Source: Alistipes sp. ZOR0009 (lineage in GTDB: Bacteria; Bacteroidota; Bacteroidia; Bacteroidales; ZOR0009). From it: a DNA stretch of 64,000 bases. Shown here one piece after another: positions 2,211 to 52,264 of the stretch (within the stretch, counting starts at the first letter, position 1; every line of letters begins with the position of its first letter). Location: contig NZ_JTLD01000004.1 of NCBI RefSeq assembly GCF_000798815.1, positions 186,001 to 250,000 of the forward strand, written 5' to 3'. The notes beneath the pieces were generated by a model. It did not search any database. It saw nothing but the letters and a program-made list of their open reading frames with translations, and was not told the origin of the DNA. The position numbers and the translations under genes were made by a program.

Positions 2211-2900
2211 ATGCAGGAGGAAATAAAAAAGCACAGCAAGAAAATATTTAGCATTGCTGGCAATCGCAACGCCAGCATAGCCAAAAAAGTAAGAGAAGTA
2301 CTTCTCGAAATACTCATCATCTTTATCGCCGTAAGCATATCCGTATGGTTTCATAACCAAAACGAAAAGAAGCATCAGCAGGAGGAGGTTAAGGAGTTCC
2401 TAACCGACATAAAAGAAGATCTGCTAAAAGATAGGGCAACCTACCTCCGCCACGTTCAATACCACAACAGCGATTCCCTCCTCTACCAAAAGATTATCCG
2501 GGTAACAAAGAGCAGCTCCGACACCACCAAGATAAAGATCAACTTCGTGGTAAGATCCCTCAACCTATCATGCGGCAACTACGAGGGCTTTAAGACAAGC
2601 GGCAAAATTGGCTACATCAAAAACAAGGAGCTCAAGAAAAAGCTGCTCGCCTACTACGAAGACAACATTCCCAACCTAAAATTTGGACAAACCTACTACA
2701 GCCAGGAGTCGAACAAGTTTATCGAAACCATTTTCGATAACGCCGAAAACCTGATGAGCTACGTTTGCACCAACCGCGTAAAATCAAAAGCCCAAAACTT
2801 TCTCCTTATATCATCGTCCATAAATGACCAAATGAAAAAATCCGTAACGGAAATCGATGCCATACTCCACGAAATAGCCAAGGAAGTTCCCCAAGAGTAG
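2211..2900 (+). CDS. Small membrane-anchored protein of unknown function (DUF6090-like)
   Basis: The 229-residue product has a basic N-terminus, one strong membrane segment at about residues 29-46 (ILIIFIAVSISVWF), then HNQNEKK and a long helical, charged region. A C-terminal soluble part is rich in Lys, Glu and Tyr. The order 'EILIIFIAVSISVWFHNQNE...' resembles the DUF6090 family of Bacteroidota (one TM helix followed by a WN(E/D) segment), for which no function is known. The gene stands alone, 210 bases after the PH pair and just before a 21-bp repeat array. Family membership is from recall of the pattern, not from a search. Confidence 0.65.
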   Translation: MQEEIKKHSKKIFSIAGNRNASIAKKVREVLLEILIIFIAVSISVWFHNQNEKKHQQEEVKEFLTDIKEDLLKDRATYLRHVQYHNSDSLLYQKIIRVTKSSSDTTKIKINFVVRSLNLSCGNYEGFKTSGKIGYIKNKELKKKLLAYYEDNIPNLKFGQTYYSQESNKFIETIFDNAENLMSYVCTNRVKSKAQNFLLISSSINDQMKKSVTEIDAILHEIAKEVPQE

Positions 2901-2920
2901 CTTACGCAAAGTAGCATACC

Positions 2921-3172
2921 CATCGACCCATTTTATATCGATGGGGGATCTCCGAGAGGGGGCATCGATACTTTTTGTATCCCCATCGACCCAAAAAGTA
3001 TCGGCATCGACCAAAATTGCATCCCCATCGACCGAATTTGCATCGGCATCGACCGAATTTGCATCGGCAACCACCAAAAAAGTATCGGCATCGATGCTTT
3101 TTGCATCCCCATCGACCCAAAAAGTATCGGCACCGACCAAATTTGCATACCCATCGACCAAATTTGTATCGA
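2921..3172. repeat. Degenerate 21-bp tandem repeat array A (12 units)
   Basis: Units begin CATCGACC and end GCATCGG or GCATCCC; eleven of twelve 21-base units are recognisable (2921, then 2963, 2984, 3005, 3026, 3047, 3068, 3089, 3110, 3131, 3152) and the second (2942-2962) has diverged. The period never slips. The middle of the unit alternates between AAAAAG, AATTTG and CTTTTTG. All frames are open on both strands because the units lack stop codons; the minus strand would read as heptapeptides of the type (V/I)D(A/G)D(A/T)xx. It lies between two convergent genes. There are no spacers, so it is not CRISPR. Confidence 0.9.
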
Positions 3173-3175
3173 TGG

Positions 3176-3985
3176 CTACCCTATTTTTAAGGATGTCATC
3201 GTTAATGAGCCACCAACGGGCTTATCATTAAAGAACTTAATCTCCTCGTTTTTATCCTGCAGCGCAACGGCATAAAGCAGCGGCAGGAAGTGCTCGGGGG
3301 TCGGTATCGACAGCTCAAAAGCCTTACCCAGCTTCGAGTAGCCAACCAACGCCTGGTGGTTCCCATCCAAGATAAGCTCCTTCATTTTATCGTTGGCCTC
3401 ATTGGCCCAATCGTAGCCGTAGCATTCGTTAAGCTGCTGCCAACGAATCATTCCAAGATTATGAACCAAGTTGCCGCTTCCCACAATCAAAACGCCCTTA
3501 TGGCGCAAGCTGTAAAGCTCCCTGGCCAGCTCGTAATGCTGCTGCGGCGTTTTGTAGTAATCGAGGCTTAGCTCTATTACCGGAATGTTTGCCTTGGGGT
3601 ACATGGGCCTAACTACCGTCCACGCGCCATGATCTAGCCCCCACTTCTCATCCAGCACCACCTCGGTGCTCGCCGCCATGCGCTTAACCTCCCTGGCCAG
3701 CTGCGGCATTCCTGGGGCTGGGTACTGGATGTCGTACAGCTCTTTCGGAAAACCGCCAAAGTCGTGAATCGTGGCAGGCTGCTCCATGGCCGTCACCTTC
3801 GTCCCCTGCGTCTCCCAATGGGCCGAAATAACAACAATAGCTTGGGGCGTTTCAATCTCCTTCGAAATATCCCTAAACCCCGTAACGAATTCATTCTCCT
3901 CAACGGCATTCATCGGGCTGCCATGTCCCAAAAAAAGAACTGGCATTTTCGGCGTGCTCGCCATCCATTCACCAACTATACGCAT
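3176..3985 (-). CDS. ygiD: LigB-type extradiol dioxygenase (4,5-DOPA dioxygenase family)
   Basis: The product (269 residues from the ATG at 3985) matches the YgiD/LigB non-haem iron family, which opens catechol rings such as that of L-DOPA. Metal-site and active-site signatures are visible: FLGHGSPMNA near the N-terminus, VISAHWE, HDFGGFPKELYDI, GLDHGAW and VGSGNLVHNL. E. coli YgiD is about the same length. The longer frame to 4024 opens with TTG and is unlikely; a further ATG at 3964 (MASTPKMPVLFLGHG) would also fit the family N-terminus. It is convergent with the upstream membrane-protein gene and its stop is four bases from repeat array A. The natural substrate in this organism is unknown. 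Confidence 0.85.
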   Translation of the reverse strand: MRIVGEWMASTPKMPVLFLGHGSPMNAVEENEFVTGFRDISKEIETPQAIVVISAHWETQGTKVTAMEQPATIHDFGGFPKELYDIQYPAPGMPQLAREVKRMAASTEVVLDEKWGLDHGAWTVVRPMYPKANIPVIELSLDYYKTPQQHYELARELYSLRHKGVLIVGSGNLVHNLGMIRWQQLNECYGYDWANEANDKMKELILDGNHQALVGYSKLGKAFELSIPTPEHFLPLLYAVALQDKNEEIKFFNDKPVGGSLTMTSLKIG

Positions 3986-4163
3986 TTCATCAAGTTTTGT
4001 ACCCACTACCATTCCCAATGGCAAGGCTAAGGGCGATTATAAAAATCTTCACCTATCCACCTCACGCAGCATAAAAGCCTCCTTTAGCCCGCAGCCCGCC
4101 ATCGAAAATGATTTTAGGTTATCGTACATGCTCGTAGATTTTCGCTTAAACAATACTATCGTT

Positions 4164-25428: not shown

Positions 25429-28400
25429 TTACTTCGTGTATATACCAAATGCCTGATTGTATTTAGCAACAACCACCCTGTGGTTGCACAGCTTTTCCGA
25501 AAGCCCATCCTGACACTCCTGCAGCAATGCCTGTGCCTCCAGCAAATCCGAAATGGCAATAATACCCGCCTTATAGTTGTCGTTAGATATCCTAAAGTTT
25601 TCGGTAGCCTGCTTAACCATATTCTGAGAAAGCTCTATCTGGCTTACGCTTTCGGTTACGGCATTCTCCGATTGGCTCATTTGTAGATCCAGCTTCTCGG
25701 CGGTTTCGTCAAGCTGCATTTGGATACGCTGCACCTTAAACTGCTGCTGTTTAATCTTACGCGAACCACCCCACCAATCGCTAATAGGAATACTTAATGT
25801 GGCCAATGCAAAAGCCTGCTTCATGCTGCTGTTGTTTACATCTATGTAGTTCCATTGGGCAGATAGCGCTAGCTGCGGAAGGTATTCCCCCCAAACAAGC
25901 TTCTTCTGCAGCTTTTCGGCCTGCAGCATCTTACCCACCAGCTGGTATTCCATCCTATTTTGGGTTGCCTGCTGCTTTCCAATCGGCTGAGGCTTACCGG
26001 GCTCTCCCTCTATTTGATAAGAGAGAGAGATATCCGTAGAGGTAGGTAAGCCTATATGCTGGCTAAGCGCCATTTTGCTTAGTTTTATTGCATTCTGCAG
26101 CTTAAGCCGATTCATCTTCAGCTCGTTTTGCTTAATCTGAACCTTTAGCAAATCGTTACGCTGCACCAAACCAGCCTTACACATGTTGCTTACATCGCGA
26201 GCAAGCGTATCCAGAAATCCCTGGTAGCGATCTACCGTTTTCATTTTCTCCTGCAGCGAAATAATGGTCCAGAAGAGCTCCTCCGTATGCACCATCACCT
26301 CGGTTGTACTCAGCTCAAGCTTCTTTTGGCTTACCTCCTTACCCAATGACGCCAACCTATTGCCATTCACAATACGTCCACCGGCATATATTGGCTGTGT
26401 TGCGCTAACGATGGCCATACTTGCCTTATCTAAAAGGTTAAAGCCGGGAATATAGGTAAACTGGGTAGGATGCGCCAAGTTGGCCGGATTTCCATCGTAC
26501 ACGGGTAGGTTTAACGCTGGCGTTTTTATAAGGTAATCGGTAGCTCTTAACGCGGTAAGATTTGCCTTTACAACCGGAAAGTAGCTGGTAAAAGCCCCCT
26601 TCCTCTGCTCCTCCGATTCCAACACCTCCTGCTGAGCCTGCAGCAAGGCTTTGCTGTTGCTTAACGCTATAGCCTTACAGGAGTCTAACGTCAAAAGACG
26701 GGAGGGGGATGCTGGCTTTACCTGAGCATTACCAGCAGCAGGTAGCAGCATCAGAAAGGCTATAATACCAATGCCTGCTGTTGCCATCTCTCTGCCTCCT
26801 TTTGTATTCGATTCCTTGCGGTAGGCCAACCAGTATAGCACCGGCAGCACAAATAGCGTTAGCACCATCGAAATCATCAAACCAAAGCAAATAACCGTAC
26901 CCAATGGTCCCCATAGCGGCGATCGGCTAACGATCATCGAAATTACACCAACCGATGCGGCGGCGGAGGTTAAAAAGATTGGGCGCATACGTCGTTTGCC
27001 TGCAGCAAGCGATGCCTCATATATCGAAAGGCCATTCTTTTCAACCAGCTCGTGGGCGTAGTCTACCAGTATTATCCCGTTACGTACAACAATACCACAA
27101 AGGCTGGTAACTCCCATAAAGGCTGTCATCCCAAAAGGAAACTGCATTACGTACAGCCCAATTGCAGCACCAGGCAACCCAAGTAGCATGGTACTCATTA
27201 TAAGTAGCGACAGCTTAATCTTCTTAAACTGAAAGAGAAGTATAAAGAATATGATGAGCACGCTTACCATAAGGGCAATGGCCATCGGAATGTAGGTTTC
27301 GATTTGCGACTCCAGCTCGCCTCCGTACGAAATGGTAACGTTAGGAGTCTTAAGGTTATCGATTTGAGGCTTCAACACCGAGAACACCTCCGATGGCACC
27401 ATTTCTGGGGATACATCCACCTGAACGGTAAGCGTTCTTACTCCATTACGTCGTACGATGGTACCTTCGGTCCACTCGGGCGTTAGCTTGGTAAAGGAGC
27501 GCAACGGAATTCCCGACATTGTGGCAGGAGAGGTTATATACTCGTCCTGAAGCGTCTTTATGCTCTTAGGGGCGTTGCTATCCTTGTAGAGCTTTACAGC
27601 CACGGGATAGTCGTTCTCCCAAATGGTTGTCAGCGGAAGCCCATTGAGCGATGCCAGCAGCGATGTAGCCACCAACCCCTTCGAATATCCCATTCTGTTG
27701 GCCTTATCCTTATCCATCTCGACACGGATATTCTGCTGATACTGATCCCAATCTGTCCTAACCCAATCGATATGCTGTGTTTTAGCCAGAATTGCGTTTA
27801 CCTGCTTTTCGGCAGCACGCAAATCGGAGATGGAATCGCCCGAAAGGCGTATTTCGATAGGCGCCTTGGTTGCCAACAGCGATAGAATCTTAAACTTGAC
27901 GTGCGCATTGGGGTAGGCATTCATCAGCTTAGAGGAGTAGTCGTTAAATATCTCCTTGGTAGCCTCGTTTGAGGTCGTATTCACCAGTATTTGCCCGTAG
28001 TTATGCGAGGGCATATTAGGCGCATATACCGTATGGAATCGAGGCGAGCTGGTACCAATAAAGCAGGTTACGTTGGTTACCCGGCTATCCCTCTTCAGCA
28101 CCTTCTCCACGCTATCAATCACCTGGCTGGTTCCCTCCAGCGCCGTGCCTGTTGGCAGATAAACCTCTATTGCCAGCTGGTTACGATCCATCTCGGGAAA
28201 AAGCTGCTGCTTTACCTGACTAAACAGCAGGAACGATAGCAGCACAGAGGCAACACCCAGCGAAATGGTAATCTTAGGATGCCTAAACGCCTTCTCCAAC
28301 GACTTATCAAAGAAACCCTGAAGCCTATCCAAAAAGCTCTTTCCCTCCTTCTCCTTTTTGCTGGTTCCAGCCTCTACATCGTGGTGCAGCAGCCCCTTTT

Positions 28401-29892
28401 TAATGAAGTGAAAGTTAAGGTAGGGCACAATAAATAGTGCCACAAGGATGGACACGAAAAGGGCAATGGCAATAGTATAAGGAAACGAGAATACAAACTC
28501 GCCAGAGACGCCCGGAAGGAAAATATCCAACGGAAAGTAGGCCGAAATGATAGCCAGCGTTGCCGCAATGATTGGCACCACCAGCTCTCTTGCGCTTTTA
28601 ATGGCGGCCTTCCACGGATTCATTCCATGATCCAGTTTCTCCACATGGTTGTCTATAACAACAATGGAGTTATCAACAATCATCCCTAGCACCACAATTA
28701 GGGCGGCCAACGTTACGGTGTTAAGCTCAAAGCCCAGAAAATATAGAATGCCAAGGGTTATAAGAACCGAGATAGGAACCGTAATCCCAGCCACCGAGGC
28801 AACCCTTAGGGGCAGCAGCAGCATGGTTACAAATATTACGGAGATGATGGCAATGCCAAACTCCCCTAGGAAGTGCGAGATCGACTCGTCGACATACTTC
28901 GGAAGTTCAGAGATCTTCTCGACCGCCACATCCTTAGAGGTGTACGAGCCAAACTTATCTATTGCCTTATCGACATCCTTACCAAACTGAACGATGTTAT
29001 TGCCGGGCTGCATCTCCAACGATAGCAGAATGGTCTTCTTCCCATTCTGACGAATGTAGCTGTCCGGATCTTCGTACTTGCGCTCTAGGGTGGCAATATC
29101 CCTTAGCCTAACAACATTCCCGGCTGGATCGGAGTAGATAATCTGCTCGTAGAGCTCCTTCTCCGACTCGAAGTTGGCAGGGAAATGCACCGTAAGATCA
29201 TTCTTACCATCCTTTAAAACCCCTGCGCTATTCACCATGCCGTTTGACTGGTACGACGATAGCAGCGATAGCGATTTAATATGGTATTCGTTCAGCTTCT
29301 CGGGGCGAACCTTTACATGTATCTGCTCCTTCTGAATGCCGTAGTGCTTTATCTTAGATACTGATGGTATTTTCCGGCACTCGGCCTCCAGGCGCTTTAG
29401 ATCCTGCTCCAGCTCCTTGTACGACTTCTTGTCGGACGAGAGGGTAATAAGCAGCGCAGCCGTATCGCCAAAGTCGTTGTTGGCAACAAGCGCCAGCACC
29501 CCCGACGGCAGCGACGAGGCCTTAAGCTCGTTTAGCCCGTGGCGTAGCTTAGACCAAAACCTATCGGCATCCTTCACATCGTCATTCAGCTCGACAAATA
29601 TGTACATTACCCCATCGCGCGATAGCGAGTAGGTTTTAGCCTTCTTTACCTCCTTGTAGCCAAAAATGTAGTTCTCCACCTCGCGGGTAAGCTGCTCCTC
29701 CACCTCGGCCGAGGTTGCCCCAGGATAGATACCTACCACCAGCCCCTGGCGGATGGTAAACTCTGGAAACTCGTTACGCGGCATCTCCTTTAACGCCCAA
29801 GCTCCAATAAGTAGCAGAAGCGCAGCCAGCGTAAACACGATGTTGCGGTATTTCATGGCGGCCTCTATCAGGCCAATTCGTCTATTGCTCAT
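25429..29892 (-). CDS. Fused RND efflux permease and TolC-type outer-membrane channel
   Basis: One open frame of 1487 residues. Residues 1-1035 are an RND permease: first membrane helix at about 15-32, first periplasmic loop with GIYPGATSAEVEEQLT, transmembrane block with VVLGMIVDNSIVVIDNHVEKL (the proton-relay site reads D-N, as in many family members), second loop, and the last block ending VLPVLYWLAYRKES. Residues 1036-1487 are a complete TolC-like protein starting with its own signal-like stretch (MATAGIGIIAFLMLLPAAGNAQ) and the usual LTLDSCKAIALSNSKAL and DLLEAQ. At the join, AAAGGAGG lies 7 bases before that ATG. The adaptor gene is one base upstream. Confidence 0.9.
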   Translation of the reverse strand: MSNRRIGLIEAAMKYRNIVFTLAALLLLIGAWALKEMPRNEFPEFTIRQGLVVGIYPGATSAEVEEQLTREVENYIFGYKEVKKAKTYSLSRDGVMYIFVELNDDVKDADRFWSKLRHGLNELKASSLPSGVLALVANNDFGDTAALLITLSSDKKSYKELEQDLKRLEAECRKIPSVSKIKHYGIQKEQIHVKVRPEKLNEYHIKSLSLLSSYQSNGMVNSAGVLKDGKNDLTVHFPANFESEKELYEQIIYSDPAGNVVRLRDIATLERKYEDPDSYIRQNGKKTILLSLEMQPGNNIVQFGKDVDKAIDKFGSYTSKDVAVEKISELPKYVDESISHFLGEFGIAIISVIFVTMLLLPLRVASVAGITVPISVLITLGILYFLGFELNTVTLAALIVVLGMIVDNSIVVIDNHVEKLDHGMNPWKAAIKSARELVVPIIAATLAIISAYFPLDIFLPGVSGEFVFSFPYTIAIALFVSILVALFIVPYLNFHFIKKGLLHHDVEAGTSKKEKEGKSFLDRLQGFFDKSLEKAFRHPKITISLGVASVLLSFLLFSQVKQQLFPEMDRNQLAIEVYLPTGTALEGTSQVIDSVEKVLKRDSRVTNVTCFIGTSSPRFHTVYAPNMPSHNYGQILVNTTSNEATKEIFNDYSSKLMNAYPNAHVKFKILSLLATKAPIEIRLSGDSISDLRAAEKQVNAILAKTQHIDWVRTDWDQYQQNIRVEMDKDKANRMGYSKGLVATSLLASLNGLPLTTIWENDYPVAVKLYKDSNAPKSIKTLQDEYITSPATMSGIPLRSFTKLTPEWTEGTIVRRNGVRTLTVQVDVSPEMVPSEVFSVLKPQIDNLKTPNVTISYGGELESQIETYIPMAIALMVSVLIIFFILLFQFKKIKLSLLIMSTMLLGLPGAAIGLYVMQFPFGMTAFMGVTSLCGIVVRNGIILVDYAHELVEKNGLSIYEASLAAGKRRMRPIFLTSAAASVGVISMIVSRSPLWGPLGTVICFGLMISMVLTLFVLPVLYWLAYRKESNTKGGREMATAGIGIIAFLMLLPAAGNAQVKPASPSRLLTLDSCKAIALSNSKALLQAQQEVLESEEQRKGAFTSYFPVVKANLTALRATDYLIKTPALNLPVYDGNPANLAHPTQFTYIPGFNLLDKASMAIVSATQPIYAGGRIVNGNRLASLGKEVSQKKLELSTTEVMVHTEELFWTIISLQEKMKTVDRYQGFLDTLARDVSNMCKAGLVQRNDLLKVQIKQNELKMNRLKLQNAIKLSKMALSQHIGLPTSTDISLSYQIEGEPGKPQPIGKQQATQNRMEYQLVGKMLQAEKLQKKLVWGEYLPQLALSAQWNYIDVNNSSMKQAFALATLSIPISDWWGGSRKIKQQQFKVQRIQMQLDETAEKLDLQMSQSENAVTESVSQIELSQNMVKQATENFRISNDNYKAGIIAISDLLEAQALLQECQDGLSEKLCNHRVVVAKYNQAFGIYTK
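26788..26802 (-). promoter_or_regulatory. Internal Shine-Dalgarno at the RND/TolC join
   Basis: On the minus strand AAAGGAGG is followed by seven bases and then ATG at 26787, in frame with the long protein. Such a strong ribosome site is uncommon among the genes here. It suggests that the TolC part can be started on its own, so that both a fusion and a free channel may be made. Confidence 0.7.
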
Positions 29893-29893
29893 G

Positions 29894-30919
29894 CTAGTAA
29901 ACTATTTGGGCGTTATCTACCAGCTTATCCCTACCCTCGGTAACCACCAGCGAGCTGGCCGCTAATCCCGATAGGATTATAATGCCATTTTCGTCATACG
30001 TCCCAGTCTTTACGAGCTGCTTCTTTACCCTCTTCGATGCACCATCAACCACATAAACAAAGCTGGCGCCGCTAGCATCCCTATCCACCGCCTGGTAGGG
30101 GGCAACCATCGCCTTAATCTGCGTTGTAGGATGTATAAACACGTCGCAAACCATACCCGGCTTCATTTCGAGCTGCGGATTAGCAGCCTCCACCTTTACC
30201 TCGTAGGTACGCGATATCTGGTCGGCAACCACCCCGATGTTGGTTACAACTCCATCAAACTTTTTATCGTTTAGGGCCGAGATGCTAAACGTAGCCTTCA
30301 TCCCCTTACGCATCTTGCCAATCTCATTCTCGGGCACCGAAATCTTTACCTGAATTCGCTCTATCTTGACAATCTCTAGCGGATTAAACGACGAGGTGGT
30401 GTGCTGTCCGGGCTCTATGTTCCTGCGGCCAATAATTCCCGCAACGGGGGCGCGTAGGTACGACTTCGAAAGGTTCGACTTCGAGAGCTCCATTTGCGAC
30501 TCCGCCTGTCGGAGGTTAGTTTCCATCTCCACCCACTTTATTTCGGGGAGGCTTCCCTTGTCGTACACGCTCTTTAGCCTGTCGTAGGCATCCTTTGCCT
30601 GACGGTACTTGGCTACGGCCGCGTTGTACATCGACTCGTTGTCGCTCTTATCTACGCTGGCAAGCAGCTGCCCCTTCCTTACGGCATCGCCCTCCTGTAC
30701 CAGCACCTGAGTTACAATCCCCATCGACTGAAAGGTTAACGGAATGGATTGCTGCGGCTCTACAGTCCCGCTGTAGCGCAAATCCTGATTTACCATTACC
30801 TCCTTAACGCTAGCCACGTTAACCCTAATTCCCTGTTCTTCGCCCTTCGTGCTGCTAGATTTGTGGCTACAACCTGCTAGCACAAACACGGCAACGGTAG
30901 CAATAACTAGTAATCTCAT
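29894..30919 (-). CDS. RND efflux periplasmic adaptor lipoprotein (HlyD/MFP)
   Basis: A 341-residue membrane-fusion protein that links the inner-membrane permease and the outer-membrane channel. The lipobox is VFVLAGCSHKSS, so it is a lipoprotein. The lipoyl half-motifs (QEGDAVRKGQLLASVDKSD and YLRAPVAGIIGRRNIEPGQ) flank a coiled-coil hairpin, then beta-barrel and membrane-proximal domains follow. It stops one base before the permease start and is therefore co-transcribed with it. Two TetR-type operators lie just upstream, which argues that the neighbouring TetR represses it. Confidence 0.92.
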   Translation of the reverse strand: MRLLVIATVAVFVLAGCSHKSSSTKGEEQGIRVNVASVKEVMVNQDLRYSGTVEPQQSIPLTFQSMGIVTQVLVQEGDAVRKGQLLASVDKSDNESMYNAAVAKYRQAKDAYDRLKSVYDKGSLPEIKWVEMETNLRQAESQMELSKSNLSKSYLRAPVAGIIGRRNIEPGQHTTSSFNPLEIVKIERIQVKISVPENEIGKMRKGMKATFSISALNDKKFDGVVTNIGVVADQISRTYEVKVEAANPQLEMKPGMVCDVFIHPTTQIKAMVAPYQAVDRDASGASFVYVVDGASKRVKKQLVKTGTYDENGIIILSGLAASSLVVTEGRDKLVDNAQIVY

Positions 30920-30934
30920 AAAACCTGCCTTTAA

Positions 30935-30952
30935 ATACTAAACGTTTGGTAT
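30935..30952. promoter_or_regulatory. TetR operator O1 (adaptor gene)
   Basis: ATACTAAACGTTTGGTAT is an 18-base near-perfect palindrome, 16 bases upstream of the adaptor start. It shares the pattern ATAC(T/C)nAnCGnnnGGTAT with O2 and O3. Confidence 0.75.
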
Positions 30953-30970
30953 GTGTTATTCCTCAAAAAA

Positions 30971-30988
30971 ATACCGACCGAACGGTAT
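30971..30988. promoter_or_regulatory. TetR operator O2 (adaptor gene)
   Basis: ATACCGACCGAACGGTAT has perfect ATACCG/CGGTAT arms. Its centre is 36 bases from that of O1, in the gap between the TetR and adaptor genes. Confidence 0.75.
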
Positions 30989-31028
30989 GCAACGCTATCT
31001 AAAAAACGTCGTACGCAATTGTACAACG

Positions 31029-31622
31029 CTACTCCTTCTTTAGCAACCTGTAGTACTCCCAAATTTGCTGCTTCAGCATGTTAAACGCCTCGTCGGTATC
31101 CTGCGTGCTCATCACCAGGTTACCGGCAAAGCCCATAAATACGGTGGTAAACATGTAGGCCGTAACCGAAACGCTGATATCATCTCGAATCTCCCCGCGC
31201 TCTATCGAATTTTTTAAAACAAGCTCCGTCTTAGCGGTCTCTTCCTTTACGTACTTCTCCTTATCATCCAAGAAACCCTTGTAGTGCCTCGAAGCATCGA
31301 TAATAAAGGATATGTAGTTAAGAGGCGTAAACTGCGGGCTGTAGTTCATGTAGGTATCGATAAGGGTACGCATCTCCTGGATGTTACTTTCTAAAAAGTC
31401 GCTAAAGGAGATGGTTGCCAAATCGCAGCTTGCCACCGGCAGCACCAAGTGCTTCTCCACAACGCTTCTAAACAAATCCTCCTTGCTGGCAAAATGGTGG
31501 TACAGCGCCCCCTTGGTCATCCCTATAGCCTTGCTGATATCGCTAATGGAAACAGCCTCGTAGCTATGGGCCAAAAACAGGTCGTAACACTTATCAACTA
31601 TGTACTCTTTGGTATCACTCAT
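31029..31622 (-). CDS. TetR family regulator of the efflux operon (second TetR)
   Basis: A 197-residue TetR protein. The N-terminal domain has the typical DISKAIGMTKGALYHHFASKEDLF helix-turn-helix and a helical C-terminal effector domain. It heads the efflux locus: TetR, adaptor, RND-TolC, all on the minus strand. An operator-like palindrome (O3) lies immediately before its start and two more before the adaptor, so it very likely represses itself and the pump, as AcrR/QacR-type regulators do. The inducing compound is unknown. Confidence 0.93.
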   Translation of the reverse strand: MSDTKEYIVDKCYDLFLAHSYEAVSISDISKAIGMTKGALYHHFASKEDLFRSVVEKHLVLPVASCDLATISFSDFLESNIQEMRTLIDTYMNYSPQFTPLNYISFIIDASRHYKGFLDDKEKYVKEETAKTELVLKNSIERGEIRDDISVSVTAYMFTTVFMGFAGNLVMSTQDTDEAFNMLKQQIWEYYRLLKKE

Positions 31623-31646: not shown

Positions 31647-31877
31647 GCAAATGTAGGAGATATTTTGATAGCATGCAAAAAAGGAGCAATAAGGTGTACA
31701 CGAAAGTACAGAAAGGTAGAAGAGTGGCCCCTCCTGCTGCTTGCTTACGCTAGCATCATGATAAAATAGTAAAAAATAAGGATAAGACGCTGCTGAAGAC
31801 TATGAGTAAGAAATGGAGGAGCTAGCAATAGCAAGTGGGACCTGAATTATTGATGGAAGAGAACAAAGCGGTTCGTA

Positions 31878-32129
31878 GCAGTAAGCATTGCGCTCAACGC
31901 AGTAGCTATTGTTATTGAAGCAGTAGCTATTGTGCTTAATACAGTAGCTATTGTGCTTGATGAAGTACTAATTGTGCTCAATGCAGTAGTAGCAACTGTC
32001 AGCACAATGGTAATTGTGCTTAATGCAGTACGCTTTGTGTTAGCTGCAGCAATAATTGTGCAGAATTCAGTGGCTGTTATGCTTGAGGCAGCGGCAGCTG
32101 TGCTGAGTGCAGTATCAACTATGCATAAA
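31878..32129. repeat. Degenerate 21-bp tandem repeat array B (12 units)
   Basis: Units start at 31878, 31899, 31920, 31941, 31962, 31983, 32004, 32025, 32046, 32067, 32088 and 32109, each 21 bases. The commonest form is GCAGTAGCTATTGTGCTTAA plus one base. Conservation is highest for GCAGTA and (A/T)TTGTGCTT and decays toward the end. The plus strand is open and would encode heptapeptides of the type AVAIVLN, but the only upstream start is a GTG inside the array. No spacer sequences are present. Confidence 0.9.
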
Positions 32130-32222
32130 GAGAAAGCGGAAGTGACGCTTTAGGCAACCTCCGCTACTATTGTAGATGGTATGATGCGCATCCCCCATTT
32201 AGGGAGATTCTTTGTCCGTCGC

Positions 32223-48846: not shown

Positions 48847-50079
48847 ATGAAAAAAGTTGTTGTTGGAATTGGGCTTGTGGTAGTGCTTGCTATCGCGTTT
48901 TTTGTGGTAAAACCACGTATTGCAGCAAGTAAGTTTGAGCAGGCAGAAGAGCTTTACAAGCAGAAGAAATACAGCGAAGCGGTTGAGATGTACGGATCGG
49001 CCATTTTCTGGAACGGCAAGGCAGAGTACTACAACCAACGAGGTTTAGCCTACGAGGCACAAAAAATGGACAATGAGGCGCTTGCCGATTTCCAAAAAGC
49101 GGTTGACAAGGACGATGCTGTAGCCGCCTACTGGTCTAACCTAGCCGGAACACAACGCAAGCTTAACAACTTCGACGGCGCGCTTCAAAGCGTGGACAAG
49201 GCGCTTGCCCTAGACTCTCTTAACTCTAAGGCATACTTCAACCGTGGCCTTATTAAAGCCTCTAAGCACGACTACAACGGTGCCATTGCCGATTACACCA
49301 AGTCTATTAAGCTAGATGGAACCAACATGGAGGCCTACTACAGCCGGGCCAACTCCCTTGTTAACATTAACGACTTTAAGAACGCCGTTGGCGACTACGA
49401 TAAGCTCCTAGGAAACGGAAAAGAAAGCTTCGATGCCTACAAGCAACGTGGACTTTTCAAAAATGGGCTAAAGGACTACAAGGGTGCAATTGCCGATCTT
49501 GAAAAGGCAGCCCAAATTAACGGACAAGATGCCCAGGTGTACTACGAAATGGGTATCGCCTACTCCAACTCTAAGGGTTTGGCAAAGGCCATGAGCTGCT
49601 ACAGCAAGGCGCTAACCCTTAACCCCAAGTATAGCGAGGTTTACTACAGCCGCGGCATGGAGTACCTGTACCAAAACAACTTTAAGAATGCCATCGCCGA
49701 CCTAAACCAAGCCATCAAGGCGAACCCTAAGTTCAAGAAGGCCATCTATAGCCGCGGAACCGCCAAGGCCATGTCTAAAGACTACAAAGGTTCGATTGCT
49801 GACTTTGACGCCGCCATTAAGCTAGACCCTAAATATATAGATGCCTACTACAACCGCGCCGTAAGCAAGGGTATTCTCCTAATGCACAAGGAGGCAGTTG
49901 CCGATTATAACATCGCCATTAAGCTTAACCCCAAAAACGCCGAAGCATACTACAACCGCGGTATTTCGCGCGTTAATATCAACGACATGCAGGGAGCTTG
50001 CAGCGACTTCGACACGGCCATTAAGATGGGATACGCTCCTGCAAGGGAGATGAAGGCCATTTACTGCGGTAAAATCTAA
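48847..50079 (+). CDS. Membrane-anchored TPR protein
   Basis: A 410-residue protein with a single N-terminal membrane helix (VVVGIGLVVVLAIAFFVV) and about ten tetratricopeptide repeats, each with A-x-Y-x-x-R-G/A and A-I-x-D-(F/Y) signatures (e.g. AEYYNQRGLAYEAQKMDNEA, AYFNRGLIKASKHDYNGAI, AYYNRGISRVNINDMQGAC). TPRs form a protein-binding superhelix, here exposed to the periplasm. The next gene follows after 6 bases and is probably co-transcribed. The partner is unknown. Confidence 0.88.
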   Translation: MKKVVVGIGLVVVLAIAFFVVKPRIAASKFEQAEELYKQKKYSEAVEMYGSAIFWNGKAEYYNQRGLAYEAQKMDNEALADFQKAVDKDDAVAAYWSNLAGTQRKLNNFDGALQSVDKALALDSLNSKAYFNRGLIKASKHDYNGAIADYTKSIKLDGTNMEAYYSRANSLVNINDFKNAVGDYDKLLGNGKESFDAYKQRGLFKNGLKDYKGAIADLEKAAQINGQDAQVYYEMGIAYSNSKGLAKAMSCYSKALTLNPKYSEVYYSRGMEYLYQNNFKNAIADLNQAIKANPKFKKAIYSRGTAKAMSKDYKGSIADFDAAIKLDPKYIDAYYNRAVSKGILLMHKEAVADYNIAIKLNPKNAEAYYNRGISRVNINDMQGACSDFDTAIKMGYAPAREMKAIYCGKI

Positions 50080-52012: not shown

Positions 52013-52264
52013 TTTGTAAAAGCAAAAAGAGATAACGCTTAAGGAAAATCTCAAAATGCTTAAGCAAAACCTTATTTCGCTTAAAGGAAATGACATATTG
52101 CTTAAGCAAAACCTTATAATGCTTCAACGATATAAGGTTTTGTTTAAAGGAAACCTCATAATGCTTGAGCAAAACCTTATTTCGTTGAAGTAATATCTTA
52201 TTTCGTTGAAGCAAAACCTCCAATTGCTAAAGCAAAAGCAGCAAACTTCAAAACAAAACCATCT
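52013..52264. repeat. Degenerate 21-bp tandem repeat array C (about 12 units)
   Basis: Units start at 52013, 52034, 52055, 52076, 52097, 52118, 52139, 52160, 52181, 52202, 52223 and 52244. The commonest form is AATGCTTAAGCAAAACCTTA plus one base; the GCTTAAGC and AAAACCTTAT blocks vary most slowly. On the minus strand a reading frame (51870-52223) encodes heptapeptides of the type LLKHYKV and SFKRNKV. It lies between two converging genes. A thirteenth unit may exist at 51992. Confidence 0.9.

Follow-up and report, generated by a model that had tools for sequence, protein, structure and literature searches.

The window, that is, the whole stretch of 64,000 nucleotides analysed here, belongs to a genome of 4.45 Mb in 125 contigs (G000). 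Near its left end, array A (2921..3172) fills a 275-b gap between two convergent genes, one on the plus strand for a 229-aa protein without Pfam family (2211..2900) and one on the minus strand of the LigB-type dioxygenase family (3176..4024); among 80 of 198 relatives, those considered in named genomes, the LigB-family protein has its best match in Sunxiuqinia (82%), which would place the genome in the Bacteroidota and probably in the Bacteroidales. Rfam and tRNA scans of the window returned nothing, and neither did a promoter and terminator scan of positions 2801-3300.

Array A occupies twelve 21-b places in a single register, with 11 recognisable units that agree with the consensus at 14-19 of 21 places. 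A first reading made from the sequence alone (hereafter, the sequence-only reading) had counted twelve units without slippage; the register is indeed unbroken, but the second unit (2942..2962) matches the consensus at 4 of 21 places. By eye, sequence similar to this odd unit is present in arrays L103, of congener G002, and L082, of the same genome. The best in-register block (2961-3170) comprises 10 units with 80% identity to the consensus.

As the same reading had stated, two further arrays, B (about 31862..32134) and C (about 52032..52241), share the 21-b period with unrelated units. Self-match at lag 21 over 126 b was 0.69, 0.65 and 0.61 for A, B and C, respectively, as compared with a best value of 0.49 (mean 0.46) at any lag from 4 to 150 in 20 Markov shuffles of the window. 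In these arrays, lags 10, 11, 20, 22 and 44 all stayed below 0.50, lags 42 and 63 reached at least 0.50, and the array-wide 42-b match was at least as high as the 21-b match in each. Tandem Repeats Finder (TRF) recovered the same three arrays.

The central block of the array A unit had been described as flipping orientation. This is real in two units (2963..2983 and 3089..3109), although the core alone is flipped and not the whole unit. In the first of them, the 12 b of CGATACTTTTTG at 2966 recur exactly, in inverted form, as CAAAAAGTATCG at two places (2992-3003 and 3118-3129); the second has the core CTTTTTG. Array A contains three inverted 10-mer pairs, against a mean of 0.03 when columns were shuffled among units. 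Template switching between short inverted repeats is a described type of mutation that homogenises the arms and inverts the spacer, according to the parts of PMC8604942 and PMC7202029 available to us, and the flipped block of array A fits such a spacer inversion.

Two other features of the window lie in or among genes. Positions 49711-50025 hold a 102-b (34-codon) tandem repeat within the ORF at 48847-50079 that, in contrast to the arrays, is coding. Large minus-strand ORFs at 25429-31622, of 1487 and 341 aa, the latter of the HlyD family, are followed by a TetR-type regulator; judging by their place, these genes adjoining array B would form an efflux operon.

A genome-wide class of 21- and 42-b arrays

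We scanned stretches amounting to 479 kb of the same genome, 628 kb of congener G001 and 530 kb of congener G002, 1.64 Mb in total. Arrays were called where lag identity was 0.55 or higher across 105 b, and periods of 20-22, 40-44, 62-64, 82-84 and 104-106 b were assigned to the 21 class. This yielded 96 calls of the 21 class, 19, 46 and 31 in the three genomes (40, 73 and 59 per Mb); with every period counted, the calls numbered 23, 55 and 43. Overlaps were seen within three pairs of calls (L146, L220 and L172), and two further pairs adjoin (L117 and L164), so there are about 93 separate arrays. They span 1.3% of the stretches in the own genome, 2.9% in G001 and 2.0% in G002, and extrapolation from the densities gives an estimated 175-315 arrays per genome in the genus. 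In samples of other genomes we obtained 5 calls in 562 kb of stretches from the same order and 5 in 908 kb around 80 named loci, or 6-9 per Mb.

Fundamental periods of the 96 calls were 42 b (43 calls), 21 b (28), 41 b (13) and 22 b (5), with seven others found once each; mean lag identity in the first 72 arrays stood out at 21 (0.41), 42 (0.54) and their multiples only. Outside the 21 class, 25 arrays were called in the genus, with periods of 9, 12, 14, 24, 36, 45 and 81-102 b, none of them near 31 or 52 b. By sequence, the 96 calls fall into 72 components, 60 of which are single. Repeat length is therefore constant within one genome despite unrelated sequences, as is characteristic of constant-size noncoding satellites. 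The sequence-only reading had made its case depend on a 21-bp peak above shuffled sequence and on comparable arrays elsewhere; both were found, and the family of 21-b arrays with unrelated sequences that it proposed proved to be genome-wide, non-coding and present in the congeners too.

Other repeats appeared in the scan. In G002, a cluster of 12-b repeats of the CCCCGAGCCG and CCCTATCCGT types occupies one long intergenic region (L164:7938-10057), adjoined by two weak 21-b arrays, and the 96-99-b repeats at L125:10874-11274, L220:215-521 and L172:7334-7732 are, by eye, putative tandem tRNA genes.

Once ORFs made up mostly of array were set aside, 95 of the 96 calls lay outside called genes and one overlapped a gene. 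The suggestion that the arrays are tiny genes for heptad-repeat proteins draws on stop-free frames, five of six in A and two in B, and on the ORFs of 100-164 aa formed by some arrays; such frames arise because any stop-free 21-b unit yields them, and in C no frame stays open from end to end. Codon-phase bias was absent: after dropping arrays with periods not divisible by three or fewer than five units, 2 of 54 arrays reached p≤0.05 (mean p 0.65), and we rejected the arrays as coding tandem repeats. Additionally, the period is no multiple of three in 23 of the 96 arrays (22, 40, 41, 43, 62, 82 and 104 b). We consider heptad-repeat genes the least credible of all the explanations weighed here, to the point of near dismissal.

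Bending of the DNA by A-tracts on one side of the helix, also proposed initially, was not borne out. Against dinucleotide-preserving shuffles there was no clear 10.5-b A/T signal (z +0.7, +0.9 and +2.2 for periods of 21, 42 and 41 b), and a second test, on W, gave z +1.3, -1.0 and -0.2. The 42-b units did show an unexpected 7-b component (34 families; z +3.8 for W and +4.2 for purines), with 6 of the 34 above their 95% line for W; a harmonic of the 21-b step may account for part of it.

Dyad symmetry, flipped cores and gene context

To evaluate dyad symmetry, we used circular dinucleotide-preserving shuffles of the unit on 91 of the 96 calls, dropping five with periods above 45 b. Units were dyad-symmetric in 46 of the 91 arrays at p≤0.05 and in 36 at p≤0.01, and the symmetry extends across families, being found in 31 of 70 when each was represented by one array. 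By comparison, 8 of 53 other tandem repeats were symmetric, namely 5 of 30 non-21 arrays from other genomes and 3 of 23 from the same genus (two of the 25, of period 9, were left out). Only 1 of 10 arrays of the 21 class from other genomes was symmetric, so the symmetry is established for this genus only. When the test was repeated, 34 of 58 arrays of 40-43 b were symmetric, versus 13 of 33 of 21-22 b. A dyad-symmetric 42-b array would amount to a 21-b module alternating in orientation, which would unite both period classes.

In the window, array C passes this strict test (p 0.005), whereas A (p 0.39) and B (p 0.30) fail it. An earlier and looser test, by simple column permutation, had given 57 symmetric arrays out of 72 (mean z 1.97); the z value of array A fell from 2.9 with column permutation to 0.2 with the dinucleotide-preserving test.

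Inverted copies are less general than dyads. Across 77 arrays, excluding those with fewer than four units, the inverted k-mer excess (1.50) was not above the direct excess (1.55), and by a strict rule 2 of 273 units of the 21/22-b arrays were inverted whole and in register. For these reasons, we propose template switching for array A and a few others only.

Symmetric units could also act as RNA, as transcribed tandem hairpins serving as a stabiliser, a decoy or a small RNA. Arrays A and C fold better than their shuffles (z -4.45 and -4.56), and 52-nt repeats of Bacillus coagulans were reported to be transcribed (PMC8625621 and PMC8161180, in the parts available to us), but array B folds no better (z -0.29) and many arrays lie past the end of a gene or in divergent gaps. 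Among 42 arrays with a symmetry score of at least 0.5, we found no convincing sign of selection for pairing: single changes that break pairs dominate (432, versus 53 double changes), and the 28 of 53 double changes that are complementary are not clearly above transition bias. An RNA role thus appears improbable.

We examined gene context for the 90 arrays with both neighbours called, after dropping six of the 96 at stretch edges. Codirectional, convergent and divergent gaps held 46, 24 and 20 arrays, compared with 387, 76 and 150 such gaps of at least 100 b at large, and arrays are enriched in convergent gaps (odds ratio 2.6, p 0.001). In codirectional gaps there was no bias towards the end of the upstream gene (n=46, p 0.92). 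Of 94 array-facing 3' ends of genes, 23 had a terminator-like hairpin, versus 246 of 1138 3' ends at large and 3 of 86 array-facing 5' ends, so the hairpins next to arrays are nothing special. The enrichment may reflect tolerance, there being no promoter to break in a convergent gap, or function, and together with the common symmetry it could give the arrays an alternative, functional meaning.

One such function would be that of a structural platform, on which a sequence-indifferent nucleoid protein polymerises along two-turn modules and insulates transcription units or organises the chromosome. Each module, often dyad-symmetric, would present the same face, and selection would act on spacing and symmetry instead of sequence or place. 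The constancy of the two-turn spacing across unrelated sequences, the excess of symmetry over other repeats and the preference for convergent gaps are all consistent with it, and a protein requiring a constant repeat size is what the authors of PMC8161180 propose in the part available to us. Conversely, the 10.5-b A/T signal is absent, about half of the arrays, A and B included, lack significant symmetry, and arrays come and go at given sites (see below). We regard the platform as a rather unlikely explanation, albeit the strongest of the competitors.

Turnover and origin of the arrays

Between G001 and G002, 74 neighbouring gene pairs are conserved in the stretches (median protein identity, 88%); 68 of them have no array, three have one in G001 only, two in G002 only and one in both. 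None of the 36 gene pairs shared with G000 contains an array. For two of the slots filled in one species only, the gap is short in G000 too, the matches to the flanking genes lying about 80-95 b apart, and this lack of an array makes them, by parsimony, gains in G001. In the slot occupied in both species, the periods are 41/82 b and 42 b and the flanks match, and beyond an 18-b edge there was nothing better than E 0.3. Behind a third gene, G002 and G000 both have arrays, with nothing better than E 0.4 between them, and G001 has none; the right neighbour in G002 was not found at the G000 locus. Arrays are, then, gained and lost in these slots, and partial conservation between close relatives, also typical of the satellite class, is seen as well: two arrays are orthologous with their flanks in G001 and G002 (88% over 827 b, with almost no internal indels, and 84% over 893 b, with several), indicating that fast turnover is not universal.

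Around array A, the orthologue of its left gene in G001 has no array in the 1.5 kb behind it and an unrelated-looking 21-b array before it (L097); no orthologue was found in G002. Behind the LigB gene, G002 carries a weak 42-b array at about 0.4 kb (L111:2717-2948) and G001 an 82-b array at about 1.3 kb (L112:1-230, the end of the L236 array), neither of which came up when these genomes were searched for relatives of A. Array A is private to its own genome at its site, and gaps near LigB carry other arrays in both congeners, which may be due to chance given how abundant arrays are. Since many arrays have disappeared or given way to others from one close species to another, an individual array is probably not in the service of any particular gene.

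Relatives of array A do occur elsewhere, with partial copies at two other sites in its own genome (87% over 108 b and 83% over 105 b) and further relatives in both congeners; for array B, none was found at E 0.001 in the three whole genomes. Wherever non-orthologous copies were compared, similarity ended within the arrays and the flanks were not shared. An array of G001 (L127:9663-10153) joins two 42-b families, its left part resembling L162 and L169 and its right part L221, all of G002, which suggests recombination between arrays.

Related arrays at non-orthologous sites, an intergenic place and symmetric units are also what would be expected of a non-autonomous mobile element moved by a transposase, such as REP/BIME with RAYT or the BrickBuilt MITE. 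Nevertheless, 60 of the 72 components are single in the sample, and the copies compared are alike within the array only, with no common ends. A search for PF01797 gave no Y1 transposase in G000, a genome 99.99% complete, seven hits in G001 (one below the cut-off and one with stops) and three in G002. Membership of REP/RAYT was rejected on the lack of this transposase in the own genome and of any single high-copy palindrome (72 components in 96 calls), and a BrickBuilt-type MITE on the lack of a common leader and tail with inverted-repeat ends, since non-orthologous copies match inside the arrays only. A mobile element is accordingly very doubtful, slightly more so than a role as RNA.

How arrays begin can be approached from their short forms. 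In 344 kb of intergenic DNA from the three genomes, with arrays masked, we found 14 tandem duplications of at least two copies with periods of 12-70 b; five have periods of 20-22 b and, judged by eye, either are simple sequence or belong to the 12-b repeat cluster in L164. Among the 22 arrays whose units are at least 90% alike, 20 extend for 164-420 b in register and the other two, of 63 and 129 b, have just three units in register. Slow growth from two copies combined with selection for 21-b steps should leave short forms with many different periods; because few are seen, birth near full size, by a process that sets its own step, seems the better account.

We therefore favour, tentatively and at somewhat less than even confidence, non-coding satellites that a DNA process working in two-turn steps generates in bursts and that are then remodelled by template switching and tolerated between transcription units, and place this explanation ahead of the protein platform. 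An array would arise in a burst, to near full size, in the spacer between transcription units, from DNA synthesis or recombination advancing two turns of the helix at a time (21 b, with 42 b corresponding to a pair of modules); at times, part of another array would be copied instead. Substitutions and the gain or loss of stretches would follow, and polymerase template switching at quasi-palindromic units would flip cores, such as AAAAA to TTTTT, locally. Against burst birth it must be said that no generator was found and that the two-turn step is not derived from any known enzyme.

A more specific generator can be envisaged, although we give it little credence: a small DNA intermediate of a kind not yet described, a 21-bp dumbbell closed by hairpins, equivalent to a circle of about 42 nt, copied by rolling circle into whole arrays. 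If so, any sequence would produce 42-b tandem units with dyads every 21 b and full length at birth, and the arrays would be the imprints of such an intermediate in the genus. Such a product would have the anatomy that we measured in symmetric arrays of 42 b; the 21-b arrays with less symmetry could be explained only with further change.

Comparison with known systems

The sequence-only reading knew of no described class of this kind, but one is already in print (Subirana and Messeguer, PMC8161180, cited throughout from the part of its text available to us). Noncoding tandem repeats of Bacillus are 20-21 or 52 nt long, constant in size, unconserved in sequence and species-specific, with partial conservation between strains for those of 52 nt; nucleoid proteins or small RNAs were suggested as their role, and in some species one short sequence is common to all repeats (PMC8161180). 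The arrays studied here are similar in their 20-21-nt size, in having several unrelated families per genome, in being noncoding and in their partial conservation among relatives. They differ, as far as that text goes, in belonging to a Bacteroidota genus and in their strong 42-b form, measured dyad symmetry, polarised gains and reuse of slots; short sequences and their reverse were noted in the 52-nt repeats without the dyad test used here (PMC8161180). The class is thus already described. The additions made here are its occurrence in a genus of Bacteroidota, the version with 42-b units, dyad symmetry assessed against control repeats, a pair of gains that could be polarised, a slot filled by unrelated arrays in different species, and how rare short forms are. 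Subirana and Messeguer reportedly also dealt with constant-size, variable-sequence noncoding tandem repeats in J Bacteriol in 2020.

Those who described bacterial satellites with a constant size but arbitrary sequence call them "enigmatic" (PMC8161180), and the question is whether selection or the mode of formation fixes that size. This genus offers a tractable case, with congeners close enough for gains and losses to be followed and unrelated arrays substituting for each other in slots, and dyad symmetry with a two-turn step provides a common, measurable feature for any mechanism to explain.

Three other known systems, again compared through the available parts of their descriptions, resemble the arrays in some respects. 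The homogenised arms and inverted spacers of quasipalindrome template-switch mutations (PMC7202029, PMC8604942) match the cores of array A, but this is a mutation process, not a repeat family, and leaves the 21/42-b step unaccounted for. REP/BIME sequences with RAYT (PMC2817692) are likewise intergenic and clustered, with palindromic units in alternating orientation; unlike them, the arrays have no sequence common to the whole set, and no Y1 transposase was found in the own genome. Among the matches listed, the only paper on such arrays in Bacteroidales concerned the BrickBuilt MITE of Porphyromonas gingivalis (PMC4596501), which consists of short units (23 nt) repeated in tandem between genes and occurs many times per genome. 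BrickBuilt, however, is made of a single unit family with leader and tail ends, whereas the units described here are unrelated between arrays and the copies compared lack common ends.
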